A DNA stretch of 49,239 bases. Source: Bacteroides sp. Its GTDB lineage: Bacteria; Bacteroidota; Bacteroidia; Bacteroidales; Muribaculaceae. This document shows positions 40,213-49,239 of this stretch, in pieces. Numbering within the stretch: position 1 is the first letter of the stretch; each line of letters begins with the position of its first letter. The DNA lies in NCBI GenBank assembly GCA_014802015.1, contig JAAVDB010000031.1:1-49239 (forward strand), in the 5' to 3' direction. Position numbers and translations under genes: made by a program. Below the pieces are notes generated by a model. The model was not told where the DNA came from. It searched no databases and worked only from the letters and a program-made list of their open reading frames with translations.

Positions 40213-40728
40213 ATGGAACCTATTACAAGTAATGATTTCCTTAACTCAGTTCTTGAAACTGAGGCGTGGAAAGAAGTTTCTCAAAGCGGGAGACTCAGTA
40301 TGACCATGATTGAGAAGTATGCCGACAAACTTGACTGGGAAGAGGTCAGTGGCAACAGTAACGTCATCTGGACGGTTGAAGGCATCAACAAGTTTGCCAA
40401 CAGAATCCATTGGGATGAATTTTCTCGTTCATGCCCGGAAAACCTCCTCTCGGAGACCACGCTTCTGAAGTTTGCGTCCAAGTGGGATTGGAAGGCTCTC
40501 TCCAACCGTGACGACATCTACAACAACTGGCGTCTGCTCGAAAAGTTTGCCGACAAGGTAAACTGGGGCGAAGTCATCACCAACTGGAATATTGAGAAGC
40601 CGCTTGAATTCTTCTCACGTTTCCAGCAGTACATTCCCATGTCCAAACTTCAGGACTCCCGTCTGTGGAATGCAATGGTCGAAGCTCGCGCCAAGCATCT
40701 GATCCAAGAAGCCATCGGCATAGAATAA
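40213..40728 (+). CDS. Protein of about 25-residue Trp-containing repeats, function unknown
   Basis: The 171-residue protein consists mainly of a repeated unit of the form (I/L)-x-KFAxKxxWxEVS. Clear copies start near residues 32, 57, 84 and 108, with a partial copy at 14-23 and a degenerate one near 131. The key tryptophans W19, W42, W67, W93 and W118 are spaced 23-26 apart. There is no signal peptide or membrane segment. The pattern suggests a small solenoid of paired helices acting as a binding surface. I do not recognise a named family. It stands alone between the glycan operon and the DUF262 pair and could be cargo of the same accessory region. Confidence 0.75.
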   Translation: MEPITSNDFLNSVLETEAWKEVSQSGRLSMTMIEKYADKLDWEEVSGNSNVIWTVEGINKFANRIHWDEFSRSCPENLLSETTLLKFASKWDWKALSNRDDIYNNWRLLEKFADKVNWGEVITNWNIEKPLEFFSRFQQYIPMSKLQDSRLWNAMVEARAKHLIQEAIGIE

Positions 40729-41083: not shown

Positions 41084-43084
41084 ATGGAACTTCAAACTAA
41101 TCAAGAAGATCGGAATCTTGAACCTCGCACTATTGGTTCGCTCAATGGCTTACATTTTCGTATACCTTCTTATCAAAGGGGGTACCGCTGGGAGCGATTG
41201 CAAGTGCAACAACTCTTGAACGATTTGGCAGAAGCTGATGATTCTGTGCCATATTATCTTCAACCGATAGTCGTGGCTCCAATGTCTGAAACCGAAGAAA
41301 GCAGAGAGGCTGCAAACGTCGGTAAATATTTCGACATCATAGATGGCCAGCAACGCCTCACCACCATATATCTGATTCTGCAGGCGTTCACCAAGCTTAC
41401 ACAACCTTTGTCGGGAAAAGACGAAGAGTCGTTGACTGAAGAAGAAAAGGGAAAAAGGTACGCATTTAAATATGCTCTTGGTCGGGTAGACACCTCGGCA
41501 AACTTCAGCCTATCGTATCAAACGCGTACTGACAGTGAAGCGTTTCTTCAAGGAATCAACAGAATTGACGAGTCTGATAAAAGCATCCGCGAAACACCAG
41601 ATCACTTGTATATGTGGCATGCTTTTCAATGCGTCATTGAATGGTTGGGCACACAAAAGATAGAAACGGTGAGCAAGGTTGCCGGAATGTTGAAGAGCAA
41701 AGTGAAAGTTATCTGGTATCAATTGTCAGAAACGATAACCGACTGGAAAAAATTCACCGACCTCAACATAGGCAAAATCCCATTGACCAATTCTGAGCTA
41801 ATAAAAGCACTGTTTTTACGGACTACAAATTTCTGTACACCAGAAGAGAAAGACGGAGAGGAATATCTGAAGCAGACACTTGTCGCACAATGGGACCAAA
41901 TCGAGCGGGAACTTTCGTCTAATGCTTTCTGGGGATTTCTTTCCAGGGACAAGAAGAGCGATTATCCCACAAAGATTGATCTATTGTTCGACCTTATCTC
42001 TCAAAAGAAAAATTCTAAAAACCAGGATGCGCTATACACCTTCAGCTATTTCGTAAAATTATTTGCCAGCAACAAGGCTACAGGTCTGAAGATGTGGGAA
42101 GACATCTATCTAAAATACCAGCGTCTGAAAGACTGGTATGAAGATCGTGATATGTATCATATGTTGGGCTATCTGATAGCCATAGACTATCCGGCAAATG
42201 CTTTGGAACGGATTTTCAAATTTGCGCATCCCGAGAATCGTTGCTACCGTTCAACTGATAGAATCAAAAATGTACTTGCAAGGCTTGTGAGCATGTCATT
42301 GCGAATACCGGACGGAAGTAAGTTTGAGGGCGTGAAGTCGTTTGAAGACCTGAGATATAACATATCGGATGATCCTGACCGCACTGTCGACACCTCCCAT
42401 CATTACATGATAAAACGATATCTCACCCTCTACAATATTCTAGTTACAGAGGACGCCGGTAAAAAACTGCGCTATCCTTTTGATTTCCACAACACCATTG
42501 ACGGAGGTTGGAGCCTTGAGCATATTCATGCACAGAACTCCCAGACCCTTAACAAGGGATGGCAATGGGAAGAATGGATAAACAATCATGCTGACTCTCT
42601 GAAACGACTCGTAAAGTCGCTGGACGAAGGGAACGAATTGCGGCCGAGGATAGACAACCTCATTTCCCGTATGGCCTCATTTCCCAAGCAATCCAATAGA
42701 GACGAGTTCGACAAGATCGCTGATGATTTCAGAGAGATTATGGAAAGTCTCCCCGGTGCTAAAAGGTTGTATCAGGATGAAATGGCCAATATGGCATTAT
42801 TGGGCAAATACAACAACTCCACACTTAACAATTCAACCTTTGACGTCAAGCGCCAGAAAGTGATCAGATTGCTCGGCACTAACTTTGTGCCGTTGGCAAC
42901 CGAACGTGTGTTCCTCAAAGCCATTACCGGAGAGATGACCGTTGTCAATGAGGACGAAACCGTTTCTAAATCGCTGTATAGTTGTGACACCGAGCACCTT
43001 TTCTTTTGGGGAAAAGAAGATCGTATGGCATACATTGACGATATGAAAACCAAACTTAAAAAATATCTTAACCGCTATGAGTGA
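41084..43084 (+). CDS. DUF262/DUF1524 protein, GmrSD-type nuclease
   Basis: This 666-residue protein has an N-terminal DUF262 domain with FRIPSYQRGYRW (27-36) and the invariant DGQQRLTT (from 87), a ParB-like nucleotide-binding and hydrolysing fold. Its C-terminal DUF1524-type region has LEHIHAQN (His480, His482) and later MALLGKYNNSTLNNSTF, consistent with an HNH-like nuclease site. In the type IV enzyme GmrSD these two domains act together to cut glucosylated hydroxymethylcytosine phage DNA. The target here is unknown. It overlaps the second DUF262 gene by 8 bases. Confidence 0.9.
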   Translation: MELQTNQEDRNLEPRTIGSLNGLHFRIPSYQRGYRWERLQVQQLLNDLAEADDSVPYYLQPIVVAPMSETEESREAANVGKYFDIIDGQQRLTTIYLILQAFTKLTQPLSGKDEESLTEEEKGKRYAFKYALGRVDTSANFSLSYQTRTDSEAFLQGINRIDESDKSIRETPDHLYMWHAFQCVIEWLGTQKIETVSKVAGMLKSKVKVIWYQLSETITDWKKFTDLNIGKIPLTNSELIKALFLRTTNFCTPEEKDGEEYLKQTLVAQWDQIERELSSNAFWGFLSRDKKSDYPTKIDLLFDLISQKKNSKNQDALYTFSYFVKLFASNKATGLKMWEDIYLKYQRLKDWYEDRDMYHMLGYLIAIDYPANALERIFKFAHPENRCYRSTDRIKNVLARLVSMSLRIPDGSKFEGVKSFEDLRYNISDDPDRTVDTSHHYMIKRYLTLYNILVTEDAGKKLRYPFDFHNTIDGGWSLEHIHAQNSQTLNKGWQWEEWINNHADSLKRLVKSLDEGNELRPRIDNLISRMASFPKQSNRDEFDKIADDFREIMESLPGAKRLYQDEMANMALLGKYNNSTLNNSTFDVKRQKVIRLLGTNFVPLATERVFLKAITGEMTVVNEDETVSKSLYSCDTEHLFFWGKEDRMAYIDDMKTKLKKYLNRYE

Positions 43085-45431
43085 CGTGTTAAAGTCTGAC
43101 TATGGCAAACTCATTTCGCTCTACAACATGCTCACGAGTGAGAATGAGGTAATCCACAAAATATTAATCCCTAAAATCCAGCGGGATTATGCCCAGGGAC
43201 GCGAGGGAATGGAGAGTGTGCGTGGCAGATTCCTGGAAAGTATCTTTGAGGTGATAGATAAGAAGACGCCGAAAAAACTTATGCTGGACTTCGTGTTCGG
43301 GCAGAAAGAAATCTCCACGCGCAACATATTTTATCCCGTTGATGGCCAGCAACGCCTCACAACCCTGTATCTGCTGCATCTTTATGTAGGCAAACGCGCT
43401 GGAAAAACAACCGAATTCTTGAGGAAATTCAGTTATGAAACTCGCATAAGCAGCAAGCAATTCTGTGAGCGTCTAAATGAAATCGAAGCAGAGAAGTTCT
43501 CCGGAATCGGCGGTTTTATAGAGTCTCAATGGTGGTATACTGGAGTGTGGCGTACAGATCCTACAATTTCTGCAATGATCAATATGCTAAAAGATATTGA
43601 TAGCCATTATCAGCTTTTGGGCTATGTAAAAGATGATTTCAAAATTGTATGGGTACAGCTCAAAAATAATGTTGAGTTTTGGCGCCTTTATCTGTCAGAC
43701 CTCGAAACAACGGATGAGCTATACATAAAAATGAATTCGCGTGGCAAATTGCTGACCGATTTCGAGCATCTTAAGGCAATGCTCGACAACTATGCTCATT
43801 ACAATGGAAAGCTTTCAGCCAAGATTGACACATCCTGGACTAATTTGCTTTGGCAATATCGGGATAACTCAAAAGATCTTGATCCTGAATATTACGTAAA
43901 CAATGGCCTCGATATGTGTTTTGAAAACTTGCTCACATTCTATCTCAATGTGGAGGGTGCCAAAAGAGGTTTGACAGACCTCCAGTCACCCATAACCGAC
44001 CTGATTGAATTGGCTGACAAGGTGCTTGGTTACCATCCCACTAACACAGAAGAAGAGGAAGAAATAAGAAACAAAGATTGCTCACGGCTCAGAAAGGCCG
44101 TTGAGGCTCGACATATAATGCGCAGGTTTGAGCGCATCCTCGATTTCTTCAGCGAAACCGACAACAAAGGCAACTTGGTTAATGATCCCAAGCAGTTCTT
44201 TTCCCGCTTTATCCAAATTGATTACGATGAATGGCCCAATGCCGAGGCCAGACCTGACGACGTGAAGAATACGCCAAAAGTATTCATAGGCAAAAGGAGC
44301 AATGCAGACCTGTTCAGGGAGATATGCCATACAGCCTTATTGAAGAACGGATCCTTTTTATATGGACTCACATTGTATGCCGAGGCCTTCTTCCAGTATG
44401 CAGCCTTGGGCACCCAGAATTTTGAAGACCGGCTCAGGAGGCTGCGTAACCTGTTGGAAAATTCCGAGCTCCATGCACGCGATGCCCAGAACACGCTTCC
44501 AGTAGTGGATGAACTCATAGCCAACGGCAACGACTCAATAGACAGCGTGGACGATGAGCTTAACAAAAAACAGAAAAGTCAGGAAGCGTTCAAACTGAAT
44601 TGGATGGCGGCTCATCCAACCTATTCAAACCTTCTAAAAAAATTGGAAAATCATTGGCTTCTGTTGGGTAACCTCAATATGCTTATAGTCGAAGACAATG
44701 ACGGTAAGCCAATCGATATCGATATAAGTTCGGTGCACAAGTTCGGCGCATTATTTAATTCTTCTTGCGATTATATGCTGGTGGAAAGGGCTTTGTTGGC
44801 TACTGGAGATTATTCGCCTACTCCTGCTCCAGGGAAAGTGAAAGCATATGCAGGTGATAATTGGAGGCTTTGGAAAGATTTGACACAGTCCTTCAATCGG
44901 ATGACGCCCCAAGTTCTTCAAAAGTTCTTCCACAATCATAACGTTCTCAGTGCCGTAGAATTGGAGGACGTGGCCTCTAAGTATCCTTCGGTCAAGGGTG
45001 AGTATACCTGGAAAGATTACCTTCGCAAATATCAGTCAATATACTCTGCTCCAAAGGGGAAATACAGATATCGAGAAATGCATTACAGTTACTATAAACT
45101 GAATGCTAATGGCGGAGGAGGTCCCGAGTACTTTTGGAACCCATACAATCTTGCGGTTGAAAGTCTGTTAAAGCCACTCTTTGAATGCTCTACTGACTGT
45201 TACGGCGGAGCCTTGTTATTTAAAGAATCGGGCATAACTGCCGATATACAAGAACATGAGATAATATTTGTATATCCCGACGGCTACCGATTCAGCCACA
45301 GAATACCCTTCAGCCCAATTACAGGACTCGATACTGTGGATCGTATAGTTTACGCCGGAGGAGCATGTAAACGAATTGTAGGTTCATATAATGCTCGAAA
45401 TGAAGGAATAGATTTAAATGCCGGAAATTAA
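43077..45431 (+). CDS. Second DUF262 protein lacking a visible HNH motif
   Basis: This 784-residue protein opens with a DUF262 domain: IPKIQRDYAQGRE at 31-43 and VDGQQRLTTLYLLHLY from 88. It shows SRGKLLTDFEHLKAML, another family feature. Unlike its neighbour I find no EHI-x-x-QN or other HNH-like motif; the C-terminal 200 residues are Tyr-rich and end in beta-type sequence (HEIIFVYPDGYRFSHRI). It may be the nucleotide-sensing partner of the first protein or have a different effector domain. The ATG lies inside the end of the previous gene, so the two are translationally coupled. Confidence 0.87.
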   Translation: MSDVLKSDYGKLISLYNMLTSENEVIHKILIPKIQRDYAQGREGMESVRGRFLESIFEVIDKKTPKKLMLDFVFGQKEISTRNIFYPVDGQQRLTTLYLLHLYVGKRAGKTTEFLRKFSYETRISSKQFCERLNEIEAEKFSGIGGFIESQWWYTGVWRTDPTISAMINMLKDIDSHYQLLGYVKDDFKIVWVQLKNNVEFWRLYLSDLETTDELYIKMNSRGKLLTDFEHLKAMLDNYAHYNGKLSAKIDTSWTNLLWQYRDNSKDLDPEYYVNNGLDMCFENLLTFYLNVEGAKRGLTDLQSPITDLIELADKVLGYHPTNTEEEEEIRNKDCSRLRKAVEARHIMRRFERILDFFSETDNKGNLVNDPKQFFSRFIQIDYDEWPNAEARPDDVKNTPKVFIGKRSNADLFREICHTALLKNGSFLYGLTLYAEAFFQYAALGTQNFEDRLRRLRNLLENSELHARDAQNTLPVVDELIANGNDSIDSVDDELNKKQKSQEAFKLNWMAAHPTYSNLLKKLENHWLLLGNLNMLIVEDNDGKPIDIDISSVHKFGALFNSSCDYMLVERALLATGDYSPTPAPGKVKAYAGDNWRLWKDLTQSFNRMTPQVLQKFFHNHNVLSAVELEDVASKYPSVKGEYTWKDYLRKYQSIYSAPKGKYRYREMHYSYYKLNANGGGGPEYFWNPYNLAVESLLKPLFECSTDCYGGALLFKESGITADIQEHEIIFVYPDGYRFSHRIPFSPITGLDTVDRIVYAGGACKRIVGSYNARNEGIDLNAGN

Positions 45432-45456: not shown

Positions 45457-45972
45457 CTACTTGATTGGGTCGGTGCAGTATTGGCGACGGCCACAGCGGT
45501 GGCAGTGTTCTCCACGCCATACGCTGTCGAATTGCTCACAGGCCGCATCAATCAGAGGTGCTTCATCGGTTAGTATTCCGGCCTCGAAGTTGCGGCGGTT
45601 GCTGCTCTTCATGCCTATGCCTGCACCAGTCATATTGGCAGAGCCAATGTAGGCTGCCTCGAAATCAAATATAAGCATCTTGAAATGGACACGCGGGCAC
45701 AGCATCCGTTCCAGTCCGGTTTTTAGAATCGGGTATCGGTCAAAATCCTCACGGAAAGCCGGACCCGGTTCTTTTGCATGGATGAGCCTGACCTCTACAC
45801 CTCGTTTGAGCAATTTGGCAAGTACAGCGAGAAACGGCTCAGAAGAATTGCCGGCTTTAACGTGAAGGTCTTTAATGTCGGCTGTACCAATCCAGAGCGA
45901 CTTCCTCACAGAAGCCACTCTCTCGACGACCTTATCATAATGGTCTTTGTCTGAGATAAATTCAACTGCCAT
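45457..45972 (-). CDS. Single-HKD phospholipase-D-type protein (nuclease-like)
   Basis: This 171-residue protein has one H-x-K-x4-D motif (His96, Lys98, Asp103 in HFKMLIFD), followed by AAYIGSANMTGAGI, the continuing PLD signature. With only one HKD it should form a homodimer to make an active site, as in Nuc and related nucleases. The C terminus has C157, C160 and C166 (CHRCGRRQYC), a possible zinc site. There is no signal peptide, so it acts in the cytoplasm. It is the last gene of the leftward ravA-viaA-ygjP set, 9 bases after the broken metallohydrolase gene. Confidence 0.88.
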   Translation of the reverse strand: MAVEFISDKDHYDKVVERVASVRKSLWIGTADIKDLHVKAGNSSEPFLAVLAKLLKRGVEVRLIHAKEPGPAFREDFDRYPILKTGLERMLCPRVHFKMLIFDFEAAYIGSANMTGAGIGMKSSNRRNFEAGILTDEAPLIDAACEQFDSVWRGEHCHRCGRRQYCTDPIK

Positions 45973-45981
45973 ACTGCAAAG

Positions 45982-46607
45982 TTACTTATTTTTCGTGAGA
46001 TAGAGGTAGTAATTATAGTATGGAGACATCGCTATATCATCTTTTGCTTTTACCATCTTAGAATCCTCGCCTATGAGTGTGGAAAGAAAGTTCCAGAATG
46101 ATTTGCGATGATGCTTGTACTTGTAATGCGCTATTTCATGTAGTATTACACCGTCAGTCCATTCCTGTTTAATATGACGAGGAACGGTTACAATGCAATA
46201 TGATTGTTGAACGTGCAATAGCCGAGAACATTCTTCCGAAGACGCTTAACTGTAACGCCGGAGCCATGCGGCCCCTTTATATTCTCCCAATACTTTACTC
46301 TGCCAGGGAGCACAACTTTAGCAATCCGGAGTATGGTTTCGCTCATAAGTTCGCGTAGCCATTTCTGTATCTTTCGATTCTCAAAGTCAGTGGAGCCATG
46401 GTAAATCATATCCAAGATGTCATCGTGATATTGAACCTGTAGCTCAACACTGTTCTTATCCTGATATACGAAACGGTCGGGTATCGTCAAAGCAGCTTCG
46501 CACTCTAACGTGAATTTATCGACACGATGCCAAACCACCGACAGGTGTTTTGTCGTGAGTCGGAATCGAGGGTTTATCTTAAATGTCGGTTCTTTTATAC
46601 CTCCCAT
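45982..46607 (-). pseudogene. YgjP-like HExxH metallohydrolase interrupted by a frameshift
   Basis: Two frames together form one YgjP/DUF45-type protein. The first (46607-46188) holds the N-terminal strands and the RKNVLGYCTFNNHIAL segment that corresponds to the WGSC-x-x-x-x-NI-x-LN motif, then stops at TAA. The second (46218-45982) continues with IVTVPRHIKQEW and the metal site HEIAHYKYKHHRKSFW (HExxH plus downstream His). The switch falls near 46188-46215 and would be healed by one added base. It could be a real inactivating mutation, an assembly error or a recoding event; no classical slippery heptamer is visible. The first part overlaps the viaA-like gene by 13 bases. Confidence 0.75.
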
Positions 46608-47929
46608 ATTTCATCCATTATAAGTTTATAGCCTCTTACTCCGTAATGACCTATCTTCAACCCATAGAAGCGAGTGCCAAGGGCCTTTTCCTTATCTATT
46701 TTCTCCATTGTAGAGGAGTTGGGAACAGGAAACTCGAAGTCTGAAACAATAAGAACATCAGCCATCTCGTATGTGCCTTTTTGCAGAACGCGAATGGCCT
46801 CGGCAAGCATCTGTTCGCCATCAGTACCTCCACTATAACTATGCTCCAAAAATTTGTCAATCATACGCCAATTGCGCGGTTTGGCAAGGTCAATAGATTT
46901 TACCCTGACAGAGAAACTGATTAGATAGCAAGGTCTTTTCTGTTTCTTTGCCATCCGAAACAACTGTTTGAGCAACGAGAAAGCAATCCTTTGAGGTTGC
47001 CCCGACATTGAGCCACTGGTATCAATGCTTACGATAATGGGGCCTTTTGTCAGTCGTGGATCTTTACGATGTTCTTCAATTTTTTTCGGTTTGTCCTTAC
47101 CGGGACTTGAAAACTGCTGAAGTTCTTTGGTAGCATATCTCTTGAAGAATAGATCTTCCGGCATGGATAATTCCACTGGAAGGACACGCTCCAGATTATC
47201 GCCTGACTCTACTCTGTCAATCTCTTCAACTGAACTGTTTTTAGCCACAGTGGTGGGCAGGAAACGATACACTACAGTATCCTTCTCTTCTTTCGATGAA
47301 TCCTTATCGCGCCCAATCACATCGACAATCTCTTTCAATTGCAGATAACGATGAACATAGTTCTCTACCTTCTTTTTATCTTCATAATCCCTTGTGCCGG
47401 CCTCTCGACTGAGTTGTTCAAACTGCATTTTCGCACGGTTCAACATCTGACGCTCTTTCCGGTCGAGCTTTGCCTTACAAGCATTCTCCCAATCGCCGGT
47501 CAAAGCCGAAAAAACAGCGTCCTTGTCGTCGGTCTTGAACTGTGCAGTGTATCCGGCAAGATTAACATCGTATTTTGAGTATGCCGCTTCAATGATGCTG
47601 CAAACCTCCGTCCACATCATACGCTTTTTTTCAATAGATGCTTCGTTGAACTTAGCGATCAGGTCAAGTTCTTTCATTGCCTCAATTTGCATTGCACGGA
47701 ACTGTTCCAGCAAAGCAGTGAAGAATAAAATCAGGCCTTCTTTCAGCACTTCGACCCATGTCTCGTCGGAGCCGTCTATCTGAGGGTTATTGTCAATGAC
47801 TTCCTGCATATAGCCGGCTAGGCAATCATCAGGTGGCATGGATGGAGGCATCTCTCCACATTCCATATAGAAGTCAAATGCCTCGCTATATTCCTCCAAC
47901 TTGGCGTCAACGTCGGTATAGTCAATCAT
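46595..47929 (-). CDS. ViaA-like protein with von Willebrand factor A domain
   Basis: This 444-residue protein has a long helical N-terminal part (about 1-295, rich in Lys/Glu) and a C-terminal VWA domain. The metal-ion-dependent adhesion motif is complete: DTSGS at 303-307 (IVSIDTSGSMSGQPQ), the Thr in SGGTDGEQML, and the Asp in VLIVSDFEFPVP. The arrangement matches ViaA, the partner of the RavA ATPase in E. coli, where the pair acts as a chaperone-like complex and changes aminoglycoside sensitivity. It overlaps the upstream ATPase gene by 4 bases and the downstream metallohydrolase by 13. Confidence 0.88.
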   Translation of the reverse strand: MIDYTDVDAKLEEYSEAFDFYMECGEMPPSMPPDDCLAGYMQEVIDNNPQIDGSDETWVEVLKEGLILFFTALLEQFRAMQIEAMKELDLIAKFNEASIEKKRMMWTEVCSIIEAAYSKYDVNLAGYTAQFKTDDKDAVFSALTGDWENACKAKLDRKERQMLNRAKMQFEQLSREAGTRDYEDKKKVENYVHRYLQLKEIVDVIGRDKDSSKEEKDTVVYRFLPTTVAKNSSVEEIDRVESGDNLERVLPVELSMPEDLFFKRYATKELQQFSSPGKDKPKKIEEHRKDPRLTKGPIIVSIDTSGSMSGQPQRIAFSLLKQLFRMAKKQKRPCYLISFSVRVKSIDLAKPRNWRMIDKFLEHSYSGGTDGEQMLAEAIRVLQKGTYEMADVLIVSDFEFPVPNSSTMEKIDKEKALGTRFYGLKIGHYGVRGYKLIMDEIWEV

Positions 47930-49239
47930 TTTATCAGCATAACTACGTTATTGAGTTTTACCTCAATGGTCTTTATCTGTTCGCTCACATCCTTCAGCAT
48001 CTTATTGACCAGTGCAAGATCGTTGGGAGAAAGGAAGATATTATCACAATCGGTCCAGTTTGACGATACCGACTTCTCCCACTCTTCAACACAAATTCTG
48101 AATAAGTCCTGAATCAAATAGACACGCTGATATACCGGCAAAGTCTGTAAAGATTCAGAACTTGTTACTGATTGAGCAGCCTTCCTGCGGAAAGCGTATG
48201 GCGTACCGTCTATAATCGCTCCATTCTGGCATCTCTGAATCTTGACTTTTGTCAGATTCGAGGCATTTTGCGATTTGGCATCAAAAGGTCTTCCCGGGAC
48301 AATGGTGTGAATGATGATTTTCTTGCGCTTACTGTCATAATATCTTACTCCATCACGCGTCTGATTGGACAATGTGGCGTAATCCCATTTTGAGAAATAG
48401 GTGTCTCCAGCCGGATAATTCTCCACGAGGTAGTAGAAATAATCATACTCGGCAAAATCATTTCCGTCTGTATTTAATCGTGACGTCGTCGATTGCCGTG
48501 CGGTCTGTTGTTGTGGAGTCATAATCTGTCGAATTGACTTGTCAATTTTCGTCAGTCCTTTCAGTACAGTATCAGAGATACTTGAAGTAAAAGCATTAAG
48601 CACATTCGGAATACACTCCACATCATTCCAGAAACTATGTATCAGCAATAGATAGTCAGAAAGATTTATTTCGCTGCGTCCATTCAGATATGCCGAGGTC
48701 TGCATGAGCCTGTACGCCTTTCGCCACCGACGGTCAGAGATATAATATCTGAGCTGATTGCCATCCTCTTTCTCCAAAGCGGCAAGACTCTTACGAATGT
48801 TTTTTATGGCATTAACGACCGAATCCTGAATGCCAACGGCCTTTGATTCATTCTGCCATAAGGAATACAATTCATCAGTAATAAATAAAGACTCCGACAA
48901 TTCCGACAGCTCAATCCCGACACCCTTTATCATTTTGAAGAAGGAGGTATCGCTCTCAATGCAGTTTGAAACCATCCGCACAAGAAAGCGGTCCCACAAC
49001 GCTTCGAGACCCTCATCCTTAGCAGGGAGTTCGTTAGAGGCAGCAATAAGCACTTTCATAGGCGTGCGAATTATCTGTCCTCCATTATGGAAGATATGCT
49101 CGTTTATTACCGTCAGAAGGGTGTTCTGGATAGACGGCCCGGCTTTCCATATTTCATCGAGGAACACAACATCAGCCTCCGGCAAATATCCGGTGGTCAG
49201 TCGTTCATAACGGTCATCGTTCTTTAATCGGGAAATTGA
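47926..49239 (-). CDS. RavA-type MoxR AAA+ ATPase (5' end beyond the window)
   Basis: The frame is open to the right edge; 437 residues are visible and the Walker A region is missing. Walker B is in GYLPEADVVFLDEIWKAGPS, sensor 1 in MKVLIAASNELPAKDEG and the arginine finger in ALWDRFLVRMV. Downstream, YYISDRRWRKAYRLMQTSAYLNGRS matches the RavA-specific segment with the SDRRW-K-A-RL pattern. The C-terminal LARA-like and coiled-coil part (NDLALVNKMLKDVSEQIKTIE) also matches RavA in style. RavA forms hexamers and works with ViaA, whose gene directly follows with a 4-base overlap. Confidence 0.92.
   Translation of the reverse strand, partial: SISRLKNDDRYERLTTGYLPEADVVFLDEIWKAGPSIQNTLLTVINEHIFHNGGQIIRTPMKVLIAASNELPAKDEGLEALWDRFLVRMVSNCIESDTSFFKMIKGVGIELSELSESLFITDELYSLWQNESKAVGIQDSVVNAIKNIRKSLAALEKEDGNQLRYYISDRRWRKAYRLMQTSAYLNGRSEINLSDYLLLIHSFWNDVECIPNVLNAFTSSISDTVLKGLTKIDKSIRQIMTPQQQTARQSTTSRLNTDGNDFAEYDYFYYLVENYPAGDTYFSKWDYATLSNQTRDGVRYYDSKRKKIIIHTIVPGRPFDAKSQNASNLTKVKIQRCQNGAIIDGTPYAFRRKAAQSVTSSESLQTLPVYQRVYLIQDLFRICVEEWEKSVSSNWTDCDNIFLSPNDLALVNKMLKDVSEQIKTIEVKLNNVVMLIK

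Follow-up and report, generated by a model that had tools for sequence, protein, structure and literature searches.

The RavA-ViaA pair of Escherichia coli, a MoxR AAA+ ATPase and a VWA protein, has been studied for years, and the partners named there are respiratory complexes and LdcI. In strain K-12 the pair stands alone, as the original prediction for the locus described here had stated, in the arrangement asnA-viaA-ravA-kup. Machines that join MoxR and vWA proteins to peptidases are also already known. The VMAP and iSTAND ternary conflict systems contain all three parts; metallopeptidase effectors are rare among VMAP systems (PMC7159879) and vWA is fused to peptidase effectors in the company of an iSTAND sensor (PMC12839542). 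A jumbo-phage unit likewise brings MoxR, vWA and metallopeptidase together, with the peptidase fused to the vWA and a proposed role in virion assembly (PMC7824862). Here we describe a cellular three-gene unit in which a RavA-type MoxR and a ViaA-like protein are followed by a separate gene for a YgjP-type zincin, found in contig JAAVDB010000031.1 of a Bacteroides sp. of the family Muribaculaceae (assembly GCA_014802015.1); the whole stretch, 49,239 nucleotides long, is called the window. The combination of a RavA-type MoxR with YgjP appears to be new: no description of the RavA-ViaA-YgjP triad was found in the literature searched, and a published RNA-repair review might cover parts of the genomic island around it.

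The window is an entire contig (C31 among our handles, in which C denotes contigs, G genomes and L loci), and the genes of interest lie at its right-hand end.

47926..49239, minus strand: ravA-like gene for a MoxR AAA+ ATPase; C-terminal 437 amino acids, the gene being cut by the window end
46595..47929, minus strand: viaA-like gene; 444 amino acids, with a C-terminal VWA domain and a full metal ion-dependent adhesion site (MIDAS) motif
45982..46607, minus strand: YgjP-like gene, whole span, in two pieces in different frames
46188..46607, minus strand: N-terminal piece of the YgjP-like metallopeptidase, 139 amino acids
45982..46218, minus strand: C-terminal piece of the same, 78 amino acids in the other frame, with HExxH and the third His (PF01863, 7.5e-07)
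45457..45972, minus strand: single-HKD phospholipase-D-superfamily protein (PLD), 171 amino acids with a Cys-rich C-terminus (PLDc_2 3.3e-13, PLDc 3.3e-06)

The original prediction had placed four tightly packed leftward genes here, and its strand and spacing are correct, with an overlap of 4 bases between ravA and viaA, one of 13 bases between viaA and the YgjP-like gene, and a gap of 9 bases before the PLD gene. Its family labels (RavA-type MoxR, ViaA-like VWA, YgjP-like and PLD) all found matches, that of YgjP on the C-terminal piece. Two of the genes are, however, not what they had seemed. The YgjP-like gene is not one open reading frame (ORF) but an interrupted copy, with a frame change and a stop inside its first stretch, and intact copies of ~208 residues occur in relatives. 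The ravA gene is truncated by the contig end; its first ~126 codons lie on contig C29 (L016), the last 95 bases of which are identical to the window end.

The window pair resembles that of E. coli in combining a MoxR AAA+ ATPase with a VWA protein, in gene order, in its overlapping ends (7 bases in E. coli, 4 bases here), in the RavA fold along the chain and in the ViaA family match. Unlike the E. coli pair, it has a YgjP protease gene behind it and scores below the NCBIfam equivalog cut-offs, with 220.5 against 681 bits for RavA (NF010054, the truncated window protein being scored) and 141 against 500 bits for ViaA (NF008230). The window RavA carries bpMoxR (PF20030, a further likeness to the ternary conflict systems), AAA_5 and AAA_lid_8, and has a MoxR AAA+ core with Walker A and B motifs and a RavA-type lid; the motif residues are invariant across 10 aligned sequences. 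The RavA of a relative (L066) matches 3nbx at 1.9e-87 over residues 13-306 with phmmer; a profile search gave 1.3e-115. Sequence alignment ends at residue 334 of E. coli RavA, the middle domain being unrecognisable by sequence; full-length RavA nevertheless has the expected architecture, an AAA+ module and a helical domain interrupted by a beta domain, and its model shares the fold of E. coli RavA along the chain (VIA-align). Rows for MCM and Mg-chelatase in the same structure comparison reflect the shared AAA+ fold and not kinship. As to an LdcI-binding (LARA) domain, the sequence alignment stops short at that residue, and a beta domain is present in the model. The window ViaA matches the NCBIfam ViaA model (PRK10997, 6.8e-41), with VWA_CoxE below its cut-off, and lies next to ravA; the MIDAS residues of its C-terminal VWA domain, D303, S305, S307 and D397, are invariant and T369 is nearly so in 14 sequences. 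For the third protein, intact relatives score 59.8 (L048) and 70.6 bits (L094) against PF01863, where the cut-off is 26, and H153, E154, H157 and H163 are invariant in 14 relatives.

The association of YgjP with RavA-ViaA is real. Counting as the close subfamily those genes that score >100 bits, and the two pieces in the window as one place, YgjP occurs at 17 places in 397 genomes of the same family, and at 16 of these it directly follows ViaA; at the seventeenth (G264) YgjP is cut off by the end of the contig, and no ViaA was found there. For comparison, ViaA-like matches, counting weak ones to VWA, occur in 38 of the 397 same-family and 7 of 198 same-order genomes, the window genome belonging to both sets. 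In one of the 16 (L052, in G550), all that is left of YgjP is its first ~70 residues, which at L052:10660-12102 run in frame into a GmrSD_N region. Four places were found in the 150 genomes of a second family (f41), and at three of them (G151, G936 and G959) YgjP adjoins ViaA. Among 72,556 plasmid records, five match YgjP, and the two that do so at >100 bits, from Prevotella sp. E2-28 and Segatella hominis, both carry RavA, ViaA and YgjP in that order; the other three (55-67 bits) are absent from the ViaA records listed (30 of 44). Distant YgjP genes behave differently, with none of 15 in a 296-genome sample of the phylum having a RavA or ViaA match in its 1.5-kb flanks (one flank cut by a contig start). 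Nor does any of the 24 weak matches (<40 bits) in the 397 genomes share a contig with a ViaA place, the lists being compared by eye; fragment rows at 40-56 bits (G252 in two pieces, G515 and G443) were not counted as places, and none lies near a ViaA place. Taken together, the 16 of 17 places, the second family, both plasmids and the distant controls rule out an accidental neighbourhood for YgjP.

The three proteins also appear to have diversified together. For YgjP and ViaA, the correlation of distances across 18 loci is 0.87, a value reached in 0 of 5000 permutations; for RavA and YgjP it is 0.92 across 17 loci. On a 48-row ViaA tree the 19 YgjP-bearing rows fall in several deep branches and need 9 changes, compared with a mean of 15.2 when shuffled (0 of 500 as low); this tree leaves out fragments of <380 residues (L056, L057), predates loci L247-L249 and scores the truncated YgjP of L052 as absent. 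Together with stubs of 20-22 YgjP residues that persist in L049 and L056, this pattern fits an old association with repeated loss.

We favour, at a probability of about 0.5, a reading in which RavA, ViaA and YgjP constitute a dedicated three-part machine made of an AAA+ remodeller, a VWA adaptor and a zinc protease. We infer a physical complex in which RavA, as a hexameric motor, would loosen proteins, the VWA domain of ViaA would enter the RavA ring and grip or recruit substrates through its MIDAS metal site, and YgjP, a predicted soluble zinc protease, would cut what RavA has loosened. Such an entry of the VWA domain into the ring, with recruitment by the MIDAS, has been modelled for NorQ/NorD and is proposed for RavA/ViaA in the same report (PMC9976466). 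The published MoxR-vWA-peptidase systems and the yeast Wss1-Cdc48-Doa1 machine support the logic of the machine, not the claim itself. The VMAP and iSTAND systems differ from the present unit, which has a RavA-type MoxR and a separate gene for a YgjP-type peptidase; among the annotated neighbours neither VMAP nor iSTAND is seen, although a dedicated model was run for neither.

The same MoxR/VWA literature suggests a different role for YgjP, as a client rather than a component. MoxR/VWA pairs mature metalloenzymes, for example NorQ/NorD for nitric oxide reductase (PMC9976466), and YgjP, predicted to be a metalloenzyme, is almost always accompanied by RavA-ViaA; the pair could thus load its metal or activate its conformation, after which YgjP would act alone. 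We regard this as possible, if rather doubtful, because RavA-ViaA persists without intact YgjP in close relatives, which is unexpected for a dedicated activator.

That persistence also counts against the three-part machine, as do several other observations. Ten of the 27 close loci (the triads together with the close loci lacking YgjP) have RavA-ViaA without an intact YgjP, among them the locus with the truncated, fused gene and the two with stubs, and YgjP is broken in the window and in L074 as well. The pair thus survives loss of the protease, and the window genome's own copy of the unit may be failing, its protease gene being broken. In G1025 (L249), a partial YgjP ORF of 137 amino acids lies ~2 kb upstream of RavA, with an AAA gene in between, and not after ViaA. 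The predicted YgjP structure, with a predicted local distance difference test score (pLDDT) of 40, is too low in confidence to use. Furthermore, co-variation is not exclusive to the triad: PLD and ViaA distances correlate at 0.79 over 13 loci (0 of 5000 as high), over the same nine loci the values are 0.96 for ViaA-YgjP and 0.88 for ViaA-PLD, and shared descent lies behind part of all these correlations.

The co-variation of PLD with ViaA bears on the proposal of the original prediction, that the four genes together encode a single machine for defence, with YgjP and PLD as the effectors that RavA-ViaA loads. The PLD protein, a putative nuclease or phosphodiesterase, has an HKD motif and a PLDc_2 domain (PF13091 50.1 bits, PF00614 27.3 bits), and it does not reach the DISARM DrmC model (NF038319, 33.3 against 133 bits). 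The order of four genes seen in the window recurs in L048, L051, L062 and L068, and in the other family in L248, where one more gene separates RavA from ViaA. ViaA and PLD are paired at a distance of up to 10 kb eight times, in six cases of up to 2 kb, where 0.18 would be expected from random placement of PLD in its own genome (taken as 2.6 Mb; G452, whose ViaA is split, entered with its first row alone, so that 45 of 46 rows were used). In a tblastn search of the 72,556 plasmid records, PLD was found only in that of Segatella, ~0.9 kb from ravA on the other strand. Yet PLD occurs at 80 places in 72 of the 397 genomes, fragments included, and for 72 of the 80 there is no ViaA on that contig at a distance of up to 10 kb, although a few cases may be concealed by contig ends. 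PLD is absent from the fetched flanks of 8 of the 17 triad loci and present in those of 9; other genes stand between YgjP and PLD in L046 and L057, and in L094, L074 and L072 PLD lies 1.7-6 kb upstream of ravA.

We fetched 40 of the 72 PLD places away from ViaA, mostly better-scoring ones, and clustering recovered the PLD ORF in 36 of them. At 21 of these 40 loci without RavA a WYL, exonuclease or RtcB gene is present, each of two GmrSD families occurs at 6, a RecA/KaiC-like ATPase at 6 and its partner at 7, and an FtsZ-like gene at 3; PLD directly follows an exonuclease, WYL or RtcB gene in L172, L181, L183, L162 and L176. Remnants of YgjP, 18-34 residues long, lie beside PLD in L161, L163 and L184, as might be left behind if the slot had once held the RavA-ViaA-YgjP cassette and lost it. 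An obligate fourth subunit is ruled out by the places away from ViaA, the other neighbourhoods and the triads without PLD, and we consider a four-part machine unlikely. As the link to ViaA is above chance while most PLD genes lie elsewhere, we read PLD as a gene of the island that is preferentially placed behind the triad, a partner often found at the operon end and not a fixed subunit. The original prediction had said beforehand that the arrangement would be accidental if the YgjP and PLD genes did not recur next to ravA-viaA; its finding is stronger than could be known from one locus for YgjP, which recurs in both families and on both high-scoring plasmids, and weaker for PLD, which does so in part.

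The surroundings of the triad are themselves recurrent. In the window, two further genes converge on the unit from the left, in an arrangement also seen in L062.

41084..43084, plus strand: GmrSD-type (DUF262) protein 1, GmrSD_N 6.4e-29 and GmrSD_C 3.7e-05, convergent to the unit; recurrent island neighbour
43077..45431, plus strand: GmrSD-type (DUF262) protein 2, GmrSD_N 2.3e-21; recurrent island neighbour

Upstream of ravA, on C29, the nearest gene is a small ORF; beyond it stand a degenerate FtsZ-like gene, then the genes of a DEDDh exonuclease and a WYL regulator, and then RtcB. In many relatives, as in the window, the unit lies in a modular island whose other genes encode the RNA ligase RtcB, the exonuclease, the WYL regulator, PLD, the two GmrSD proteins and the FtsZ-like protein. 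After eight fetched loci that repeat others were dropped (L058, L059, L060, L061, L063, L064, L069 and L070), a WYL, exonuclease, RtcB or PLD gene was found in the flanks of 11 of 17 triads, 6 of 10 close relatives without intact YgjP and none of 17 other RavA-ViaA loci, several of these flanks being cut by contig ends. The island is thus specific to the close kind of RavA-ViaA. Plasmid islands carry GmrSD and FtsZ-like genes (L198) or PLD and WYL (L199). In L248, from the other family, the order is RtcB, RavA, a 277-residue gene, ViaA, YgjP, PLD (in two reading-frame pieces), GmrSD and GmrSD, with identities to the window set of 60% for RtcB, 38-63% for RavA, 39% for ViaA, 38-47% for YgjP, 64-68% for PLD and 24-27% for GmrSD. 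By eye, the product of the 277-residue gene (L248:11615-12445) resembles an ADP-ribosylglycohydrolase, with no family call.

It could be argued that the triad and unrelated island genes merely share a recombination-prone site. Island content is shuffled between genomes, and in six of the 17 triads (L073, L075, L076, L077, L080 and L082) none of WYL, exonuclease, RtcB and PLD is seen, although in L073 and L080 a contig end lies close to the triad; the neighbours of L075 and L077 resemble, by eye, ordinary thyA/dfrA-type genes. The triad can therefore probably live without the island, and the trio seems able to work alone in some genomes. We nevertheless hold an absence of any coupling to be quite unlikely, given the island genes at 11 of 17 triads in two families and on both plasmids, compared with none of the 17 other RavA-ViaA loci, and given a gene order conserved across families.

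Several features of these islands were observed in passing. Across L158-L197 the island is modular: RtcB, WYL or exonuclease often marks one end and PLD the opposite end, and the slot between them holds GmrSD, a RecA/KaiC-like ATPase with a ~359-residue protein, PDDEXK, an FtsZ-like gene or nothing. The degenerate FtsZ-like protein, which is shortened in its first half, is seen repeatedly upstream of ravA or PLD (L016 6800-7537, L046, L050, L052, L065, L068, L158, L161 and L163), in some loci with a small hydrophobic ORF, and in L198, the plasmid from Prevotella, a ZapA-like gene lies nearby. Near the far end of C29 there is another gene, distinct from the first, that resembles FtsZ/tubulin GTPases (L016:452-1003, minus strand; PF00091, 39.4 bits). 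A small protein with repeated W-containing units and no Pfam match (window 40213-40728, plus strand) belongs to a family that recurs in these islands, and a protein similar by eye directly follows YgjP at L247:8281-8817. At L071:7942-11471, identity to the window is 75% for RavA and 83% for PLD but only 52% for ViaA, a sign of exchange inside the cassette.

The families found in the island (HAD_SAK_2, PDDEXK_4, RNase_T, WYL, RtcB and GmrSD) point to nucleic-acid damage or conflict. As a three-part machine in this setting, the triad would probably clear stalled or foreign proteins during such damage or during conflict with phages. Phage defence by the unit is plausible, a fair guess from a neighbourhood that looks like restriction and RNA repair. 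In a PADLOC search no known system covers the unit: ViaA and the N-terminal YgjP piece have no match, the C-terminal piece weakly matches the PDC-S02 candidate set (0.0026) and RavA an RtcR/PspF-type AAA model (3e-05), and PLD matches MkoB (1.1e-07) and DrmC (4.3e-07) through its PLD domain. A phage-borne version of the triad was sought and rejected. In the viral_contigs collection, the YgjP alignment gave no confirmed relative among 103 pattern matches, and of the 24 loci picked up by the ViaA alignment 19 match RavA and none carries YgjP. Among 11 records with a ViaA match in the phages collection, one covers most of the protein; this unverified faecal contig of 6.6 kb (L200) carries RavA-ViaA and no YgjP in the sequence present.

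The clearing of protein-nucleic acid crosslinks is understood mainly in eukaryotes. A more specific possibility, which we judge improbable, is that the unit would be a bacterial counterpart of crosslink clearing by Wss1-Cdc48-Doa1 (plus Tdp1). RavA would then be the motor and ViaA the adaptor, YgjP would shave proteins stuck to nucleic acids, the single-HKD PLD, which we take to belong to the superfamily of Tdp1, would clean the phosphodiester adduct, and RtcB, the exonuclease and, at some loci, a SAK-type HAD would mend the ends. The trigger would be restriction or toxin attack, or phage replication proteins, that leave protein-blocked DNA or RNA. The yeast assembly, an example of a single complex built from a small zinc protease, an AAA+ motor and an adaptor (PMC4559962), is alike in these three parts; it differs in being eukaryotic and SUMO-based, with another AAA+ family and adaptor. 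Homology between YgjP and Wss1 is marginal, the YgjP profile matching Wss1p weakly (E = 0.026) and proabylysin at 6e-05, with WLM below its cut-off. At L053:6143-7966 and L055:8181-10004, a 607-residue RavA carries an N-terminal DnaA_N domain (39.9 and 45.2 bits; cut-off 24.6), which suggests a RavA tethered to replication complexes and could, on the crosslink model, be a version of the motor stationed there; neither YgjP nor PLD was found at these two loci.

If the crosslink model were true, a bacterial system would be named for a repair task understood mainly in eukaryotes. The occurrence of YgjP almost always behind RavA-ViaA in one lineage gives the pair a definite partner and an output open to testing, ATP-dependent cleavage. 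The finding connects machines with a RavA-type MoxR to those MoxR-vWA conflict systems that carry peptidases, and also to the shuffled RtcB-WYL-exonuclease-PLD-GmrSD island of the Bacteroidales.

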